From Erwinia sp. ErVv1 (GTDB lineage Bacteria > Pseudomonadota > Gammaproteobacteria > Enterobacterales > Enterobacteriaceae), in assembly GCF_900068895.1 (NCBI RefSeq), contig NZ_CDPK01000004.1:68222-132221 (forward strand): a stretch of 64,000 nt of DNA, read 5' to 3'. The notes under the pieces are model-generated. The model searched no databases and was not told where the DNA came from. It saw only the letters and a list, made by a program, of their open reading frames with translations. Shown here one piece after another: positions 56,478 to 64,000 of this stretch; within the stretch, counting starts at the first letter, position 1, and every line of letters starts with the position of its first letter. A program made the translations under genes and the position numbers.

Positions 56478-58388
56478 TTATAACCGACTCAAACAGTCCA
56501 TTGCCACCGCCTTGAAACTGTCAAAATCCGTGCTGTCCCGCAGCCGCACCATCGCCCTTTCGCGCATAAACGTCACAAACAGATCGTATATGGCCATCGC
56601 CTCTTCATATTCCGTCTTGCTGATCGCCAGCAGAAAAATGACGCAGGCCGTTTCATCCCCCCAGCTAATTCCCTGCGGAGCCAGCACGGTGTAAACCACC
56701 GTTTTCTTGGCTAACAGTCCTAACGCGTGCGGCAGGGCGATCCCCTCGCCCAGCATGGTGCTGACGATGGCCTCACGCTCCTCCACCGAGGGGAAGAACG
56801 CTGCATCCACCACGCCTTCCTGTTCCAGCTCATCGCAGAGCGTTCTGAACAGTTCGGACTGGGTCATGGGTCTGTCGATGATGCGGAAGTGGCTGGCGTC
56901 AAAAAACTTCTCCAGCATATAAGGCCGGGTGCGATCGACCAGCACCAGCTTGCCAATCTGCTCCAGCTGATAGTCGGTGGGAAAAGGCGACATCACCACG
57001 ACGGGCTTGTCCTTTTCGCTCAGGCGGGCTGTGGAGATAACAAAATCCTCCTCAACGCTACCCTGCTGCTCATACTGTCGAAGCGAAACAATATTACTGA
57101 CCACGATCTGCGGATATTTCCGCATCAGCATGGCCTGGATCATCCGCACGGTGGAGTTACCCGTATCGCATACCAGCAAAACCTGCGGATGCCGCTGATA
57201 GCCTACGTTGTAATGCCGTTCCAGCCCCACGCCGATATGCAGAACCAGAAAGCCAATTTCGTTTTCGCTAATCACATAGGGGGTGTATTTCCCCCAGCTT
57301 GATACCGCCGCCAGCGTCACGTCGTACGCCAGCGGGTAGTGCTGCTTGATATTGGTCAGCAACGGATTAGGAATATTAATCTGGTAGCGCATCCGCGTAA
57401 TCATCGTTTTGATATGCGTCAGCAGGTCTGCACGAAGCTGTGGATCGTTTTGCAGATTGAAATTGTACTGGGTATTGATATAGCTAAGAATGTAGTTAAC
57501 CAGCGATTCGCCATCGTCCGGGCTGATGGCGCTGGGAGCAATCTCCTCAATTCGCCTTGCGGCAATGTTCACCCGCAGATAAGCCTCCTCGGAGGGCGAG
57601 ATATCCTTACCGGTAACAGGCCGCAGCAGGTTGACGATATGGCGGGCCGCATCCCGTACGTCTTCATCCACATCTTCCGCGCTAAAGTCAGAGAGCGGGT
57701 GACCTTCGCTGATGCGCCTTACCGCTACCGCACAGTAGAGGCGCAGATAAAACTCGCTGTCGTCAGTCATACGAATATGGAAGCGGCTGAAGCACTGCTG
57801 TAATAAAGGCTGTAGCTGGTCGAGAATACCGCTGTTCAGCGCCTCGATATTGAGCAGCGGGTTATCGCTGTCTTCCAGCGCAATCTGGTAGAGCAAATCG
57901 GTCAGACAGGTGCGAATCGCCACTTCACTGCCGAACAGCTTCATTCCATAGCGCGGCTTGGTTTCAACCGACAGTTTGTAGCGTCCCAGCCACTCTCTTA
58001 CCTCAGCCATATCGCTCTGTAGCGTGGCGCGGCTGACAAACCATTCGTCCGCCAGGTCCTCCAGCTTAAGGGAAAAAGCAGAGGTGAGAAAACGGGTCAG
58101 CAGGTAGTGTACCCGTGCGGCAGAGGTACGCGGAACCCGCAGATGGGAAGGAGACTGCTGCTGTAGCAGGCTATAGCGGACGGCATCGTCGATCTTAAGC
58201 TGATAGCCTTCTCCGCGATTCAGTACAAAGCGCGCGCCGTGATCCACCAGCATCCCGTTGAGGGCTGTCACATCGGTGCGCACGGTGCGCGTCGAAACGT
58301 TGAAGCGGCGTGCCAGTTCATCCTGAGGCAACGTCTCGTTTTGGAGCAGGTCATACAGCTGAGCAAGGCGTTGGTTAGGAAATCTCAC
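56478..58388 (-). CDS. PRD-containing, PTS-controlled transcription regulator with EIIB- and EIIA-like domains
   Basis: 636 residues of the MtlR/LicR activator type. Two helix-turn-helix regions (QDELARRFNVSTRTVRTDV near 22-40 and LADEWFVSRATLQSD near 112-126), PRD1 (about 185-290), PRD2 (about 295-400) with His325 and His384, a EIIB-like domain with Cys407 (VCDTGNST), and a fructose/mannitol-type EIIA domain with His554 (IALPHA). PRD1 seems to lack both usual histidines. PTS phosphate should thus switch it through PRD2, EIIB and EIIA. It is transcribed in the same direction as the upstream lactonase and sugar-acid operon, and is the probable activator of that operon. Confidence 0.88.
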   Translation of the reverse strand: MRFPNQRLAQLYDLLQNETLPQDELARRFNVSTRTVRTDVTALNGMLVDHGARFVLNRGEGYQLKIDDAVRYSLLQQQSPSHLRVPRTSAARVHYLLTRFLTSAFSLKLEDLADEWFVSRATLQSDMAEVREWLGRYKLSVETKPRYGMKLFGSEVAIRTCLTDLLYQIALEDSDNPLLNIEALNSGILDQLQPLLQQCFSRFHIRMTDDSEFYLRLYCAVAVRRISEGHPLSDFSAEDVDEDVRDAARHIVNLLRPVTGKDISPSEEAYLRVNIAARRIEEIAPSAISPDDGESLVNYILSYINTQYNFNLQNDPQLRADLLTHIKTMITRMRYQINIPNPLLTNIKQHYPLAYDVTLAAVSSWGKYTPYVISENEIGFLVLHIGVGLERHYNVGYQRHPQVLLVCDTGNSTVRMIQAMLMRKYPQIVVSNIVSLRQYEQQGSVEEDFVISTARLSEKDKPVVVMSPFPTDYQLEQIGKLVLVDRTRPYMLEKFFDASHFRIIDRPMTQSELFRTLCDELEQEGVVDAAFFPSVEEREAIVSTMLGEGIALPHALGLLAKKTVVYTVLAPQGISWGDETACVIFLLAISKTEYEEAMAIYDLFVTFMRERAMVRLRDSTDFDSFKAVAMDCLSRL

Positions 58389-58443: not shown

Positions 58444-59586
58444 CTAAGGCGTGAGCACCAGCTGTGAGGGTGCGCCAACGGCCGTATAGTCCTGGGTAAA
58501 AGAGAGCGCGCCGCTGCTATCCACCCGGAAGCGCGTGATGTTATCGCTGCGCTGATTGATGGCGTAAAGCGTCTTACCATCGTGAGAGAGCGTAAGGGTG
58601 CGCGTGTAGTCACCTCGCGTCCAGACGTCATCTTTATGGCTCAGCGCACCACTGGTTCCAATAGCAAAATGCGCAATGCTATTGTGCAGCCGGTTCGCCA
58701 CGTAGAGATTCTTACCCGCTTTATCAATGACCAGCCCGGCGGCAAAGCTGGTGCCTTTATAGCCGTCGGGCAATGCAGAAACCGTAGCCCCCTCAGTCAG
58801 GACGCCGGTTTTCGCGTTAAGCCGATAGCGAGTTAACGTTGAAGCCTCTTCATTGATCAGATACAGCGCGCTGCCGTCCGGTTGGAAAACGAAATGCCGT
58901 GGGCCTGCGCCCGCAGAAGATGCCGGGATCCATGCGGGCGTATTAGGCTGTAGCTGGCCCGCGTTGTTCAGGCGATACTGATAGATGCGATCCAGCCCCA
59001 AATCGGTCGAGAAGACAAATTTTCCGCTGGGATCGCTGGCGATCATATGCGCATGCGGACCGTTATGGTCGCTTGCCGCAAAACTCCCTTCGACCGCCGC
59101 CGCTGGGTGGCTGGCACCGGCTGGCCCACTGTCCTGCTGCGTATCGCTGGCTTCTCCCAGGCGGCCATCGGCCTGCACCGGCAGAACCGCTTTACTCCCA
59201 CTAACGTAGTTAGCAACCAGCAAATACCTGCCGTCCGGGGTCAGAGAAAGGTATACCGGTCCGGCCCCCTGCGAACTGACCTCATTCAGCTTTGTCAGGC
59301 TGCCATCCCCATTGATGGTATAGGCAGCCACCGTCCCTTTCTCGCTCTCACTGGCAACGTAGAGCGTTTTCCCTTTGGCATCAAGGGTAAGCTGCGCCGC
59401 ATTTGCCTGATGACTTACCAGCGTTTTATCACTCAGTGCGCCATCGTGCGGGCTAACCTGGAAGCGGTAGACGCCCTCACCGTTGGGATTATAAGTACCG
59501 ACATAAGCATACTGTGCATGGGCCGCCAGCGAAGTGGCGGCTATCAGGGATAATGAGAGGACGGTAATTAACGGGCCGTTGCGCAT
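58444..59586 (-). CDS. Exported beta-propeller lactonase (YbhE/Pgl-like)
   Basis: 380 residues from the ATG at 59586, which has AGGA nicely spaced; an upstream ATG adds four residues. A signal peptide (MRNGPLITVLSLSLIAATSL then AAHA|QY) sends it to the periplasm, unlike cytoplasmic E. coli Pgl. The seven-bladed propeller repeats are visible (for example YVGTYNPNGEGVYRF, NGPHAHMIASDPSGKFVFST, GAGPRHFVFQPDGSALYLIN). The family opens sugar lactones such as 6-phosphogluconolactone. Export suggests a non-phosphorylated aldonolactone, perhaps giving the sugar acid used by the adjacent operon. Confidence 0.85.
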   Translation of the reverse strand: MRNGPLITVLSLSLIAATSLAAHAQYAYVGTYNPNGEGVYRFQVSPHDGALSDKTLVSHQANAAQLTLDAKGKTLYVASESEKGTVAAYTINGDGSLTKLNEVSSQGAGPVYLSLTPDGRYLLVANYVSGSKAVLPVQADGRLGEASDTQQDSGPAGASHPAAAVEGSFAASDHNGPHAHMIASDPSGKFVFSTDLGLDRIYQYRLNNAGQLQPNTPAWIPASSAGAGPRHFVFQPDGSALYLINEEASTLTRYRLNAKTGVLTEGATVSALPDGYKGTSFAAGLVIDKAGKNLYVANRLHNSIAHFAIGTSGALSHKDDVWTRGDYTRTLTLSHDGKTLYAINQRSDNITRFRVDSSGALSFTQDYTAVGAPSQLVLTP

Positions 59587-59645
59587 GGTGATCCTCATTC
59601 AGAAAAGAGGCCGACCAGCCTCGGTCTCAGGCTGGTCGGGCGGGC

Positions 59646-60386
59646 TTATTTAACCCATTTTTTGGTCATTGCCAGCAGCGCACTGACATCGGCAGGGCGC
59701 GTATTACCCGAGGCTTTATCAATGATGGAGCTGTAGATATGCGGGATGATTTTGCTTACGCCAGCATCCAGCGCAATTCGCAGAATCGCCTCATAGTTTT
59801 CCAGATCGATTCCGCCGGTTGGCTCAAGCCAGAAGTCCTGCTCCGCACAGGCCTTCGCCACGGCGGTGAACTCATCAATGGCTTTCAGACCGCCCATTGG
59901 GAAATACTTCACCGAACTGCCACCCATATCTTTCAGCATAGCAATAGCGGTTGCTACCGGCACAATGGCATCAGCTGCCCTTGAGCTCAACGGGCCGGTG
60001 GAGATTTTTACCAGGCCGGGCGTGCCGGTAGGCGAAATCAGACCGTTTACGACGGTTTGGTTCTGCCCCAGCAGCGCACGGCTGGTTGCCACGCCGGTAA
60101 AGACCTGATTAACGTGCTGCGGCTGAATTTCAGCGGAGATGGCGCTCACCATCGCCGACTGGTTAGGGTCGCCTGCGCCAAGGCCGACGGAGAGCGCATT
60201 GTCGATAAGCGCAGCGTATTCACGCATGTCGGCAACGGCGCTCGCTACGCTATCATAGTTTTTCGACAGGACGCCCACCAGCACATGGCCTTCAGCGGCC
60301 TGCCAGATCTCACGGGCATTCTCTTTTGAGCCAGCCAGCACGTTGAGACACACGCGGTCTTGATAAAATTTAGGGTTCAGCATCAT
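59646..60386 (-). CDS. dgaF: DgaF-like 2-keto-3-deoxy-6-phosphogluconate aldolase
   Basis: 246 residues of the KDGP-aldolase family (DgaF type): the Schiff-base lysine is probably Lys160 in SSVKYFPMGGLKAI, with further family segments LVGVLSKNYDSVASAVADM and WLEPTGGIDLENYEAIL. Salmonella DgaF splits KDPG formed from D-glucosaminate-6-phosphate to pyruvate and glyceraldehyde-3-phosphate. Its start overlaps the dgaE stop, so the two are cotranslated. The symbol is by family; the substrate in this operon may differ. Confidence 0.85.
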   Translation of the reverse strand: MMLNPKFYQDRVCLNVLAGSKENAREIWQAAEGHVLVGVLSKNYDSVASAVADMREYAALIDNALSVGLGAGDPNQSAMVSAISAEIQPQHVNQVFTGVATSRALLGQNQTVVNGLISPTGTPGLVKISTGPLSSRAADAIVPVATAIAMLKDMGGSSVKYFPMGGLKAIDEFTAVAKACAEQDFWLEPTGGIDLENYEAILRIALDAGVSKIIPHIYSSIIDKASGNTRPADVSALLAMTKKWVK

Positions 60387-61504
60387 GCTTTTTTCTCTCC
60401 TGCTAACAACGCGTTAATACATGCATAGATGGTATCTAACTGCCCGACCGACACGCTGCGCACGTCGACCTCAATAATACTTTCGTTAGCTTTATAGCCG
60501 CGGAAGTAGATGGCGATTTCACCGGTTTTCAGCGCCTGCACCACATCGCCGGTGGTATAACCTATTGCCGTTTCATCCAGCTTTATCTCGGCTCGCGCAA
60601 TGTCGCGCCCCGCCGAGTCCCACACCACGCGGGCGGTAATGCCATTCAGGCCGTTCAGATTGCTGATAAACGGAGTCATTTTTTCAACCATCTGCACGCC
60701 AGTGACCTTCTCCTGGGTCAGATAGCTTTCAATCGCCTGGGTCAGCCCCAGAATGCCCTCTTTGCCCACTTTCATGGCGCGACCAATACCCATTGACTGC
60801 CGCTTTACCCACTCAACAGGCTGCCTGCGTCCCATGACCAGGCCACTGGTAGGGCCTTCCAGCGCTTTGGCACCGCTGTAAATCACCAGGTCTGCGCCGT
60901 ACTGGTAGTAGCACTTAAGATCTTCTTCTGCGGCGGCATCCACGATCAGCGGGACACCGTGTTTGCGGGCTACCGTGGCCGCCTGCTCAACGTTGAGGTG
61001 GCTTTTCTGTACGCAGTGGTGCGATTTAATATAGAGAATGGCCGCGGTCTGCGGCGTGATAGCCGCGGAGAGCTGATCGGCTGAGCACTCGTTAGCGTAG
61101 CCCGCTTCTACCAGACGTCCTCCGCCCAGGGCGACCATCGTTCCGACCGGCGCGCCGTAATTCACGTTATGGCCTTTAGGGACAACAATATCGTGTGGCA
61201 CGGTTAGCGGCGCGGCGTGGAGGTTTTCCAGCAGCCAGTCGTTATCCTTCACAATCACCCCGGCTACGGCCTGAGCGATACCCGCAGACGCGCAGGAGAC
61301 CACCACCGCATCTTCCGCCCCGAGCAGCCCGGCGATATACGCACCGGTCTTATTAACCAGGTCTTTCATCTCAAAGTAGTGATTCAGCCCGTATTTGACC
61401 GTATCAACCACCTCTTCACCCGGCGTCGATACGCCCAGAATGGTCATGCGGCCTGAGGCGTTAATGACCTGCTTCAGGCCATATTTTTCATAAATTGACG
61501 ACAT
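60383..61504 (-). CDS. dgaE: DgaE-like PLP-dependent ammonia-lyase/dehydratase
   Basis: A 373-residue SelA-like PLP enzyme. The internal-aldimine lysine is probably Lys213 in VIYSGAKALEGPTSG; other family segments are VVSCASAGIAQAVAG and IVDAAAEEDLKCYY. In Salmonella DgaE converts D-glucosaminate-6-phosphate to KDPG with loss of ammonia. The ATG at 61504 lies within the end of the amidohydrolase gene (17-base overlap). Here no DgaABCD mannose-type PTS is seen; instead amidohydrolase and DUF4310/4311 proteins are present, so the substrate is probably another amino-sugar acid. Confidence 0.82.
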   Translation of the reverse strand: MSSIYEKYGLKQVINASGRMTILGVSTPGEEVVDTVKYGLNHYFEMKDLVNKTGAYIAGLLGAEDAVVVSCASAGIAQAVAGVIVKDNDWLLENLHAAPLTVPHDIVVPKGHNVNYGAPVGTMVALGGGRLVEAGYANECSADQLSAAITPQTAAILYIKSHHCVQKSHLNVEQAATVARKHGVPLIVDAAAEEDLKCYYQYGADLVIYSGAKALEGPTSGLVMGRRQPVEWVKRQSMGIGRAMKVGKEGILGLTQAIESYLTQEKVTGVQMVEKMTPFISNLNGLNGITARVVWDSAGRDIARAEIKLDETAIGYTTGDVVQALKTGEIAIYFRGYKANESIIEVDVRSVSVGQLDTIYACINALLAGEKKA

Positions 61505-62621
61505 GATGCTTTTTCCCTTCATCGGTAATAAACCACTCGCCACCCACAACGGCGGCCAGAGGTATCAGCTGTTTCTCACCGGCAACCGACTGCCCTTCGG
61601 AGTCGATAAACAGGCAGGGTTCTTCTTTGAGATCAAAAAGGGTCAGGTCGGCGTCAAGTCCCACTTCAAGCCGTCCTCTGTCGTGCAAACGCAGGCCCTG
61701 GGCAGCGTGAAGCGTCACACAGTCAATAATCTGCGGCAGCGTCATACCCACACTGAAGAATTTCGACATTACGTGAGCCAGCGAATGTACCGGGCCGTTA
61801 ATGCGGTTGCGGCAGTAGATATCTGAACTGATGGTGTGCGGCAGAATGCCCTGTGCGATGGCCACGCGGGCGACCTCAAAGCTAAAGCTGGCGCTGCCGT
61901 GCCCCACATCCAGGCGTACCCCACGATCCAGGGCCCGTTTAACCGAGGCGCGAAGCTCTCCGGCGGGCGTCAGAATACGGTTAGGCTTACCGTTATAGCA
62001 GTGAGTAATGATATCGCCGCTGCCGAGCAGGTCGGTGATTTCGTCAAGGTCCGGCGGATTATTACCGATATGCACCATCAGCGGCAGATTGCCATTTTCC
62101 TGCTGGATCTCTTTGGCTCGCACCAGCGGCTGAATGCCGTTTGCACCCACCACGCTGCTGCTCATTCGCGCCTTAATACCGAGAATAAAACCTGGTAGCC
62201 GCTTAATGGCATCGCGAATGCCCACCCTGTCGATCTGACTCATATCCGCCAGCTCGTTTTGCGTCACGATGCCGGTGCGGGCAATATTGAGCAGAGCATG
62301 AACCCGCGTATCTGCCTCGCGGGTGATCTGATAAAAATCGTCGATATCGTCCGCGCCGGTACTGCCTGCATCCACGACGGTGGTGACGCCCGTTGCCACG
62401 CCGATACGATCGGCCTCATCATGATAGATGGGCGATTTGGGGTAGCAATGGACGTGCGAATCGATCCAGCCCGCGCTAAGCCAGCACTGCCCGGCAAGAT
62501 CCTTCTCAGTGGCCGCTTCCCCGCGCACTTCGCCGAGTGCAGCAATTTTACCGTCGCTTATGGCGATGTCGGTCAGGCTGCCATCAGGCAGACGCGCACG
62601 GCGGATAACAAGATCAAACAT
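61488..62621 (-). CDS. Amidohydrolase/deacetylase, COG3964 type
   Basis: A 377-residue metallo-hydrolase. Metal ligands: His56 and His58 (DSHVHCY), probable carbamylated Lys150 (FILGIKARM), His184 (MVHIGN), His207 (ITHCYN) and Asp267 (SSDIYC). This is the binuclear zinc site of the amidohydrolase superfamily and the subgroup containing EF_0837-like proteins. Some relatives remove acetyl groups. Here it could deacetylate an N-acetylated sugar acid before DgaE removes ammonia. The start at 62621 was chosen for the family start MFDLVIRRARLPDGS. Confidence 0.82.
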   Translation of the reverse strand: MFDLVIRRARLPDGSLTDIAISDGKIAALGEVRGEAATEKDLAGQCWLSAGWIDSHVHCYPKSPIYHDEADRIGVATGVTTVVDAGSTGADDIDDFYQITREADTRVHALLNIARTGIVTQNELADMSQIDRVGIRDAIKRLPGFILGIKARMSSSVVGANGIQPLVRAKEIQQENGNLPLMVHIGNNPPDLDEITDLLGSGDIITHCYNGKPNRILTPAGELRASVKRALDRGVRLDVGHGSASFSFEVARVAIAQGILPHTISSDIYCRNRINGPVHSLAHVMSKFFSVGMTLPQIIDCVTLHAAQGLRLHDRGRLEVGLDADLTLFDLKEEPCLFIDSEGQSVAGEKQLIPLAAVVGGEWFITDEGKKHHVVNL

Positions 62622-62695
62622 GACTGACTCCTTTAATACCGGATGCCGCAGCATCCACAACGCGGTTTGCCCATTCCAGGCAAACCGTCGTGACA

Positions 62696-63340
62696 TCAGA
62701 GGGCTACCGGGAAAATCGCCCCCAGTAACATCGCCCCCAGAATGGCTCCGCCGGTAATGGGCTTATTCCACATATAGAACAGCAGCGACCCCAGCAGCGA
62801 GCCTAAGCCAATCGGTATTGAAGCCGTCATCGCAGAGAGAATAATCAACGGCCCCAGAAAGCGACCAGATGTGTTCCCTGCCCCCATCATCACGTCTGCA
62901 CCGTAGGTGGAGTCGCTGTTATTGATGGTGAACCTGCGCGCCAGAATAATCACGTAACCCACCGCAACCCCCAGCACCAGTCCGGTCACCAGCGAGGCCG
63001 CAAAGTTCGCCACCGGGTAGATAATTCCGGCCCCCAGCAGCAGCGCCGGTACGCCCAGCCCGATACCGGTCTGAATCGCGCCGCCAATATCCAGGATACC
63101 GACCAGTGAGCCTTCAATGATGCGGGCAAACAGAAAGCTGGCGCCAAAGGCTGCAACCGCGCCGTAGACGCCGGTTTCCATTCCCGACCGCAGCATGGAG
63201 ACAAAGGCGACTTCATTGAATGCGCCGAGCCCGTAGACGTAGTACATGTGCGTCCCGGCGAATACTCCGGCAGACAGCAGGCCGACAAAAATCGGAAAGG
63301 ACCAGTCTGCATACCAGAAACCGTTTTTTGACTCTTCCAT
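62696..63340 (-). CDS. DUF4310 family membrane protein (putative permease subunit)
   Basis: 214 residues from the second ATG (63340), which has AGAGG at nine bases; an ATG two codons upstream is the alternative. It shows five or six hydrophobic segments and Gly-rich motifs (FGASFLFARIIEGSLVGILD and IQTGIGLGVPALLLGAGIIYP). DUF4310 proteins always occur with DUF4311, DUF4312 and a small SFCGS glycine-rich protein plus the amidohydrolase/DgaE/DgaF enzymes, and are thought to be parts of an uncharacterised transporter. No transport has been shown to my knowledge. Confidence 0.8.
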   Translation of the reverse strand: MEESKNGFWYADWSFPIFVGLLSAGVFAGTHMYYVYGLGAFNEVAFVSMLRSGMETGVYGAVAAFGASFLFARIIEGSLVGILDIGGAIQTGIGLGVPALLLGAGIIYPVANFAASLVTGLVLGVAVGYVIILARRFTINNSDSTYGADVMMGAGNTSGRFLGPLIILSAMTASIPIGLGSLLGSLLFYMWNKPITGGAILGAMLLGAIFPVAL

Positions 63341-63353
63341 CGTCATCGTCCTC

Positions 63354-64000
63354 TTATTTACCGCTCATGGCGTTATGGATCATTTCCAGCCAGCCCGGCA
63401 CGCCCAGCTGGAAGGATTGCAGCATTTTCATGTCAAAACCGCGGAAGAAGCCGCTGAGCACGAAAAGCAGAACGATGGCAGCCATCATCACCTTAGTGAC
63501 TTTATTCCAGCCGCTCTCTTCAACGCCTTTACCAATCAGGATGCCCAGCACCAGACCCGGTACGGCATTCCCCATCATCAGTTGCGCAAGACCGCCGAAA
63601 ATCGTGGCCCAGAATCCTGACTTCTTACCGGCATCAATCGCAGCCAGCCAGAAGATCACCGGCATCACGGTATTCACCAGCAGATTCGCAGCAGGCACCA
63701 GTACCTTAACGGCGGTGACCTGTAGCGCAGCCGGAACGGCGGAGGCGGTTGAATTAAGGAAGGCAACCACGATCATGCCGATGATGCCGCAGGCAATCGC
63801 CATTTTTTTCGGATCGTGGAGGGTTTCAGCGACGTTACGGTTTTTCACCATCAGCGCAGCGGCACCCCAGTGGGGAATAATGCGGTGATCGACATCCTGA
63901 GTGAAGGAACCGGCCGCCACGGAAGAGGCCCAGGCATTAAAGAAAAAACCCAGACCAAAAGAGAAGTGAGAGGCCGGATCGCCTTCACAGGAGTTAAGTT
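63354..64000 (-). CDS. DUF4311 family membrane protein (5' end beyond window)
   Basis: The frame is open from 64000 to the stop at 63354. Translation starts inside the gene (LNSCEGDPASHFSFGLGFFF...) and continues through AAGSFTQDVDHRIIPHWGAA, so the true start is outside the window. At least five membrane helices are visible, with the motif GLAQLMMGNAVPGLVLGILIGK. It lies 13 bases before the DUF4310 gene. The pair probably forms the membrane channel of the sugar-acid uptake system; DUF4312 and the SFCGS protein would be expected just outside the window. Confidence 0.82.
   Translation of the reverse strand, partial: LNSCEGDPASHFSFGLGFFFNAWASSVAAGSFTQDVDHRIIPHWGAAALMVKNRNVAETLHDPKKMAIACGIIGMIVVAFLNSTASAVPAALQVTAVKVLVPAANLLVNTVMPVIFWLAAIDAGKKSGFWATIFGGLAQLMMGNAVPGLVLGILIGKGVEESGWNKVTKVMMAAIVLLFVLSGFFRGFDMKMLQSFQLGVPGWLEMIHNAMSGK

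Follow-up and report, generated by a model that had tools for sequence, protein, structure and literature searches.

An Enterobacterial Operon Pairs a Conserved DUF4310/DUF4311/SFCGS Module with DgaE- and DgaF-Type Enzymes and May Take Up and Degrade an N-Acylated Sugar Acid

The Salmonella dga operon joins a mannose-family permease of the phosphotransferase system (PTS), DgaABCD, to the ammonia-lyase DgaE and the aldolase DgaF (PMC9529869). In the N-acetylglucosaminate pathway of Pseudoalteromonas, known as ong (OngIT, OngB, OngC, KdgK), an SSS transporter is followed by deacetylation and deamination, and only then does KdgK act (PMC9537276, partial text); an unphosphorylated N-acetylglucosaminate route in marine bacteria is also described in part of PMC12017989. 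Here we report on an operon in the 4.7-Mb genome of Erwinia sp. ErVv1 which lies at the end of a 64,000-nucleotide stretch of contig NZ_CDPK01000004.1 (the window) and continues beyond it. Like dga, the operon encodes a DgaE-type ammonia-lyase and a DgaF-type aldolase with the phosphate-site and catalytic residues kept; unlike dga, it has no mannose-type EII, and has instead an amidohydrolase and five unrelated proteins (a small PRD protein, SFCGS, DUF4312, DUF4311 and DUF4310), referred to below as the module. With the ong pathway it would share deacetylation, deamination and a keto-deoxy acid, whereas the transporter is a different one and the ong kinase works after deamination.

The cluster is a known conserved gene set that is annotated as hypothetical. 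Seven proteins of the source genome exceed the cut-offs of the NCBI families EF_0829, EF_0830, EF_0831, EF_0832, EF_0833, EF_0837 and EF_0839, and the operon is the same set as the NCBIfam/TIGRFAM cluster EF_0829-EF_0839 / AHA_3910-3917 (TIGR03577-TIGR03583), whose families are typed 'hypoth_equivalog' and whose entries state no transport mechanism. In the open-licence literature we found no publication on the transporter of the cluster or its substrate, and subscription papers may exist. Full-text matches to DUF4310, DUF4311, DUF4312 or SFCGS contained, by title, SFCGS only as an unrelated abbreviation, and the transporter is not a subject of the portions seen of PMC4070546, PMC11000858, PMC10746210, PMC7396535, PMC4784465, PMC10882544, PMC9015054 and PMC9019972. 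What is new here is the constant company of the module genes and the pathway, the predicted RpiB fold of SFCGS with its invariant cysteine, the kinship of SFCGS with E. coli YhfU, and an HPr-Enzyme I gene next to the operon in Bartonella.

The initial annotation of the window had described an amidohydrolase, a DgaE-like enzyme, a DgaF-like aldolase and two polytopic membrane proteins, overlapping or closely spaced on one strand. All five genes are present on the minus strand, and each of the five proteins exceeds its curated NCBIfam cut-off. The annotation had also expected DUF4312 and SFCGS genes past position 64000, and carrying the gene reading onward in extended coordinates found both, together with the gene of a 115-aa PRD protein (Table 1). 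That protein exceeds the TIGR03582 cut-off, yet lies under the Pfam cut-off for PRD (12.3 vs 23 bits). Two gene pairs of the operon overlap, by 17 and 4 bases, and the remaining gaps are 3 to 110 bases. The earlier observation is confirmed, and its interpretation, partly supported by the results below, was a good lead.

A scan of public genomes returned at least 499 relatives of DUF4311, and we compared the loci of the best 80, which by record title are 79 Enterobacterales and one Xenophilus. The five module genes are present in 80/80 loci, one DUF4312 (L053) reading in two frames. The genes for the amidohydrolase, DgaE, DgaF and a BglG/MtlR-type regulator are present in 78, the contigs of the other two ending early, and a lactonase-like propeller gene is present in 27. 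Among 198 genomes of the bacterial family of the source, DUF4311 is over its cut-off in 96 and the 2-keto-3-deoxygluconate-6-phosphate (KDGP) aldolase in 95. After G496 (a 28-bit DUF4311 fragment) and G545 (an aldolase match below cut-off) were dropped, the two proteins share the identical 95 genomes, in each of which their genes share a strand at a distance of 3.4-3.9 kb; a second aldolase occurs in 18 genomes, all of them among those 95. Thus, module and pathway do not part, and common descent of one operon accounts for much of this co-occurrence. When the sample was widened to the phylum, the DUF4311 family was found in 12 of 398 genomes, all from the source's own family, and other records with DUF4311 come from Klebsiella, Enterococcus, Aeromonas and Bartonella. 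No relative was found in 385 genomes of the class of G016 (probably Alphaproteobacteria) or in viral contigs, and a blastn search of the E. coli collection with 2,901 bases, which would miss DNA under about 65-70% identity, gave no match.

Several individual matches are unusual. A second, weak DUF4311 match occurs in several genomes, and in the one case inspected (L015) the protein looks DjlA-like by eye. In Aeromonas caviae (L045, 10786-11334) the start of DUF4310 gives way to the end of dgaF over a few hundred bases, neither the amidohydrolase nor DgaE is matched, and this copy probably carries an internal deletion. In Enterococcus faecalis (L043, 18573-19297) the dgaF match is in two overlapping pieces where no gene is listed. 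The 'plasmid' records of these two loci (NZ_CP143580.1 for L043 and NZ_AP026896.1 for L045) look chromosomal or mislabelled: one has murF and a D-alanine--D-alanine ligase gene, and the other is 4.9 Mb long.

We propose, giving it an even chance, that the operon serves to take up an N-acylated 2-amino-2-deoxy-aldonic acid by a PTS-type mechanism and to break it down. Transport, PTS coupling, the substrate and the roles of SFCGS and DUF4312 are inferred; sugar-acid uptake by the module is likely, and its coupling to the PTS is about an even matter. In the proposed pathway, the PRD protein, SFCGS, DUF4312, DUF4311 and DUF4310 would make up the transport system, phosphate would pass from phosphoenolpyruvate (PEP) via Enzyme I and HPr to module components, and the substrate would enter the cytoplasm with a 6-phosphate. 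The amidohydrolase would then take off the acyl group, the DgaE-type enzyme would eliminate ammonia to give KDGP, and the DgaF-type aldolase would cleave KDGP to pyruvate and glyceraldehyde-3-phosphate.

The amidohydrolase has the full metal site that was read from the window. Of its residues, assigned by motif, His56, His58, Lys150, His207 and Asp267 are kept in 82/82 aligned relatives and His184 in 81. By family score and metal-site residues the protein falls in the EF_0837/COG3964 group, and solved relatives of the group are 8wzy, 2ics and 2ogj. The substrates of EF_0837 group members are probably N-acetylated D-amino acids, and a 2013 study by Ornelas and others reportedly dealt with a COG3964 amidohydrolase. 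Judged by this family, an N-acyl substrate is plausible.

At the residues named for the DgaE reference enzyme (PMC9529869), the window's DgaE has R304, R335, R349, R226 and H163. The three phosphate-site arginines R304, R335 and R349, together with His163 and the pyridoxal phosphate lysine Lys213 (Lys217 in the numbering of PMC9529869, equated by chain alignment), are present in 80/80 relatives, E. faecalis included. His162 is present in 79 of the 80, and position 226 is occupied by Arg in 42 relatives and by Lys in 38. The protein scores 371.8 bits with the NCBI equivalog model for DgaE itself, under the cut-off of 600, and the DgaF-type aldolase, the only KDGP aldolase in the source genome, scores 389.8 bits with NF047796 (cut-off 300). 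These residues suggest that the substrate is probably phosphorylated, in line with the initial annotation, which had compared the locus with D-glucosaminate-6-phosphate breakdown. The genome has a single mannose-type EIID gene, which lies on contig C2, and the operon is on C4, so that a dedicated mannose-type PTS, which would have spoken against the annotation, is not there. The search for kinase genes covered the operon of the window and its annotated copies in Klebsiella and Bartonella; none was found there, and the phosphate would therefore arrive with uptake or from elsewhere. A DgaE-family ammonia lyase in a Rahnella table (PMC9015054, partial text) is entered as selA, under selenium metabolism, and is probably a misannotated gene of this kind.

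N-acetyl-D-glucosaminate is the simplest candidate substrate, and it fits the order of acyl removal, ammonia elimination and aldol cleavage. An apparently exported lactonase-like protein, encoded at the 27 loci noted above, would fit an aldonolactone as the source of the acid. The ten-gene cluster has no OngB-type deacetylase, SSS transporter or kinase; its proteins belong to other families, and its amidohydrolase matches PpOngB at no better than E 4e-5, in residues 17-87. In E. faecalis the cluster also includes genes for a lactose/cellobiose-type EIIC and a MupG-like 6-phospho-glycosidase, together with a 2-keto-3-deoxygluconate (KDG)-kinase-like gene, a set that would be consistent with a disaccharide that has the same acid at its end. 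Between the EIIC and MupG-like genes of this cluster (L043, 14959-15258) lies the gene of a 99-aa protein that has no match in Pfam and looks hydrophobic by eye. The Lactiplantibacillus plantarum genes LP_RS01000-LP_RS01020, near-consecutive tags that include PTS IIC, DUF871 (MupG-like) and DgaE-family genes, rise together in a regulator study (PMC9019972, partial text) and may form a cousin of the cluster in E. faecalis.

Among the module proteins, SFCGS with its Cys63 is the best candidate for an IIB-like phosphocarrier or a substrate handler. The best solved-structure match of the SFCGS profile is RpiB, at E 0.43 a hint only. An AlphaFold2 model made from 14 sequences for the protein of Xenophilus, which shares 75% identity with that of the source genome, reached a pLDDT of 89.1 and a pTM of 0.85, the other four models having pLDDT values of 65.5 to 82.0. 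With the best model, the top 28 rows of Foldseek were all RpiB or LacAB (best E 1.7e-5), and so were the top 22 rows of VIA-align (Z 13.3 to 8.8; next fold 8.0). SFCGS is thus predicted from the model to have an RpiB fold. Cys63, invariant in 20/20 SFCGS proteins, sits in a glycine-rich loop and corresponds in the alignment to RpiB Cys66. Where RpiB has His99, which is mutated in the matched PDB entry, 18 of the 20 have Asn; both the loop cysteine and His99 presumably have roles in RpiB. SFCGS shares with the RpiB/LacAB family the predicted fold and the loop cysteine, whereas its chain is shorter and its sequence is under the Pfam cut-off for that family (14.1 vs 24.7 bits).

A parallel to the module is found in the yhf operon of E. 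coli, which encodes the small PRD protein YhfY, YhfU (117 aa, DUF2620), the membrane protein YhfT (434 aa), the phosphotriesterase-like Php and pyridoxal phosphate enzymes including YhfS. Like the operon here, yhf combines a small PRD protein, a YhfU/SFCGS-like protein and a polytopic membrane protein; in contrast to it, yhf has other enzymes, a single 434-aa membrane protein and, in annotated copies, no DUF4312. The Cetobacterium order of PRD, YhfU, YhfT and enzymes parallels PRD, SFCGS and membrane proteins here. When five YhfU proteins were aligned with six SFCGS proteins, the mean scores ranked 0, 0, 1, 9 and 0 among 1501 unrelated stop-to-stop open reading frames (ORFs) and were reached by 3, 1, 3, 15 and 0 of 1000 shuffles. 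Cetobacterium YhfU scores E 0.09 with the SFCGS model of Pfam, short of the cut-off, RpiB-type structures are three of the six weak solved-structure matches of YhfU (E 0.15, 0.79 and 0.95), and YhfY reaches E 1.6e-6 with the EF_0829 PRD family, also short of the cut-off of that family. Weighing against kinship, the profile-profile comparison of YhfU with SFCGS was weak (E 0.026, probability 1.9%; low-diversity alignments). The same comparison gave 0.6% for the operon's amidohydrolase with Php, two proteins of one superfamily. By these sequence comparisons SFCGS is related to E. coli YhfU.

The RpiB fold, with a cysteine at the position of the RpiB loop cysteine, could also mean that SFCGS is a catabolic enzyme, such as an RpiB-like isomerase or an epimerase, outside a transporter made of DUF4310 and DUF4311 with or without DUF4312. 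We consider this improbable. The Asn at the His99 position argues against it, as does the company of the gene: in two operon types with different enzymes, a small PRD gene and a membrane protein gene accompany an SFCGS-like gene, the enzymes being the amidohydrolase, DgaE and DgaF here and the phosphotriesterase-like protein, YhfS, YhfX and YhfW in yhf.

We do not claim YhfT as a fusion of DUF4311 and DUF4310. The pairs were examined by profile comparison, by alignment with 20 unrelated membrane ORFs as background and by local shuffles. DUF4311 with YhfT stayed within the background (best YhfT 48.0, background maximum 66.2), and DUF4310 exceeded all 20 for only one of six YhfT proteins (70.0 vs 62.5), with the best alignments out of register and the observed score reached by 7 to 124 of 300 local shuffles. 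YhfT itself gave three matches in 299 Pseudomonadota genomes.

Possible signs of the PTS are found around the module. In the small PRD proteins, the first histidine, His50, is present in 16/16 aligned sequences, E. coli YhfY included, and the second is found in all 14 EF_0829-type members but in neither of the two yhf-type ones. In the regulator at the other end of the cluster, the EIIB-like Cys407, the EIIA His554 and the PRD histidines His325, His384 and His392 are present in 80/80, a set outside which E. faecalis falls. On the Bartonella plasmids HY761 and HY406, a gene for a 671-aa fusion of HPr and Enzyme I directly follows the operon regulator (L044, 15405-17420; L142, 8047-10062); the next matches to it among the plasmid matches listed, from Caballeronia and Paraburkholderia, are about 54% identical. 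With PRD proteins at both ends of the cluster, the membrane module might be imagined as a complex that signals or senses on behalf of the PRD regulators, the substrate entering through another transporter. This appears very improbable, as the ten genes of the cluster and the annotated Klebsiella and Bartonella copies, to which the scan was confined, include no other transporter; E. faecalis has the extra EIIC.

A number of results weigh against a PTS-type module. No module protein matches a PTS EIIA, EIIB, EIIC or EIID family in profile or pairwise comparison, and among 31 pairs with the subunits SrlA, SrlE, SrlB, UlaA/B/C, ManX, ManY, part of ManZ, GatA and GatB, none is convincing after the number of tests is counted. 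The lowest were DUF4311 with ManZ (7/200 shuffles), PRD with GatB (8/200) and SFCGS (L002, 10721-11101) with UlaC, an EIIA (L139, 3209-3673), which scored above all 200 local shuffles as one of the 31 pairs. RpiB is not among the known EIIB folds, the 17 DUF4312 sequences compared share no conserved His or Cys, and AlphaFold2 gave no usable fold for DUF4311 (pLDDT 38; 23 sequences, 84-98% identical to the first). Accordingly, the suggestion of the initial annotation that DUF4310 and DUF4311 form a PTS-like permease holds only as an interpretation, with no recognisable similarity to EIIC or EIID. The E. faecalis regulator shows no EIIA domain, and the regulator is therefore not the general phosphate donor. 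The two Bartonella HPr-Enzyme I genes are 99.7% identical, so that the plasmids count as one case, and the fusion could serve the PRD regulator only. In the DgaE reference enzyme the phosphate was placed by manual docking (PMC9529869). The KDG-kinase-like gene and the separate lactose/cellobiose-type EIIC of E. faecalis fit an unphosphorylated route too. A link to lytic polysaccharide monooxygenases (LPMOs) is not supported. Chitin-active LPMOs would be one source of N-acetylglucosaminate, which is kept as a candidate substrate, and the source genome has two LPMO matches. LPMOs were found in 22/96 DUF4311 genomes vs 14/27 large genomes without DUF4311 (Fisher p 0.007), the wrong direction; the 27 are those of about 3 Mb or more among the genomes listed, one 2.2-Mb LPMO genome being left out.

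These results leave room for DUF4310 and DUF4311 as an ion-coupled or other non-PTS permease, with the PRD protein and SFCGS sensing or regulating, the acid entering unphosphorylated and a KDG kinase acting from elsewhere, as in marine ong. We regard this as possible, though less probable than the PTS-type pathway. It agrees with the lack of PTS permease similarity in the module, with the KDG-kinase-like gene in the E. faecalis cluster and with the Pseudoalteromonas order in which KdgK follows transport by SSS, deacetylation and deamination (PMC9537276, partial text). The phosphate-site arginines in all 80 DgaE relatives, that of E. faecalis among them, the HPr-Enzyme I gene in the Bartonella operons and the lack of a kinase gene in the operon copies searched argue against it. 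If the module is PTS-type, a broader idea is that it represents a novel kind of PEP-dependent group translocator with no relation to the known EIIC and EIID families, in which an RpiB-fold cysteine protein acts as EIIB and a stand-alone PRD takes part in the relay, with two branches, DUF4310/4311/4312 here and YhfT/YhfU/YhfY in E. coli. We put this forward as a speculation that is rather unlikely to hold in full.

The features of the locus are collected in Table 1. The stem behind dgaF is the longest of 11 terminator-like matches in the scan, a number that shows no excess over shuffled sequence (10.3). Upstream of the cluster are cytochrome b562-, pmbA-, yjgA-, mpl- and fbp-like genes, named by eye and from the annotated Klebsiella counterpart. 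Upstream of the PRD gene, CRP-like sites with at most one of 10 mismatches occur at 32/122 loci vs 1/122 after shuffling, the loci being related and not independent. An ATTTCCA stretch near the start recurs in many of 16 aligned upstream regions (L002, upstream of 11541; extended window, 65320 onward).

Table 1. Features of the Erwinia sp. ErVv1 locus, in window coordinates continued past position 64000 where marked as extended
Feature	Position	Strand	Evidence or remark
BglG/MtlR-type regulator	56478-58388	-	helix-turn-helix, PRDs, EIIB-like Cys407, EIIA_2 His554
Lactonase-like 7-blade propeller	58444-59598	-	PF10282; apparent export signal, judged by eye
Terminator-like stem directly 3' of dgaF	59639-59611 (L002 5861-5833)	-	11 pairs, 8 G-C, then T-rich tail; consensus match only
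DgaF-family KDGP aldolase	59646-60386	-	PF07071, E 4e-107
DgaE-like pyridoxal phosphate enzyme	60383-61504	-	TIGR01437, E 9e-174
Amidohydrolase/deacetylase, EF_0837/COG3964-type	61488-62621	-	TIGR03583, E 2e-166
DUF4310 membrane protein	62696-63346	-	PF14187, E 7e-104; TIGR03579
DUF4311 membrane protein	63354-64130 (window part 63354..64000)	-	PF14188, E 9e-121; TIGR03580
DUF4312 protein	64199-64495 (extended)		upstream of DUF4311, beyond the window
SFCGS protein	64499-64861 (extended)		beyond the window
115-aa PRD protein	64972-65319 (extended)		beyond the window; first gene

About half of the sampled genomes of the source's family (96/198) carry DUF4311, yet neither the transporter nor its substrate is the subject of any work that we found. 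In bacteria that lack the known ong genes, the operon could provide a route for N-acetylglucosaminate. A study of two Aeromonas strains found no clear OngB or OngC and left room for other deacetylases and deaminases (PMC11653859, partial text). If the module is driven by phosphate, it would represent a further uptake mechanism, one whose phosphocarrier fold is new, and it would give a first handle on the yhf genes of E. coli, whose products the MG1655 record calls putative or uncharacterised.

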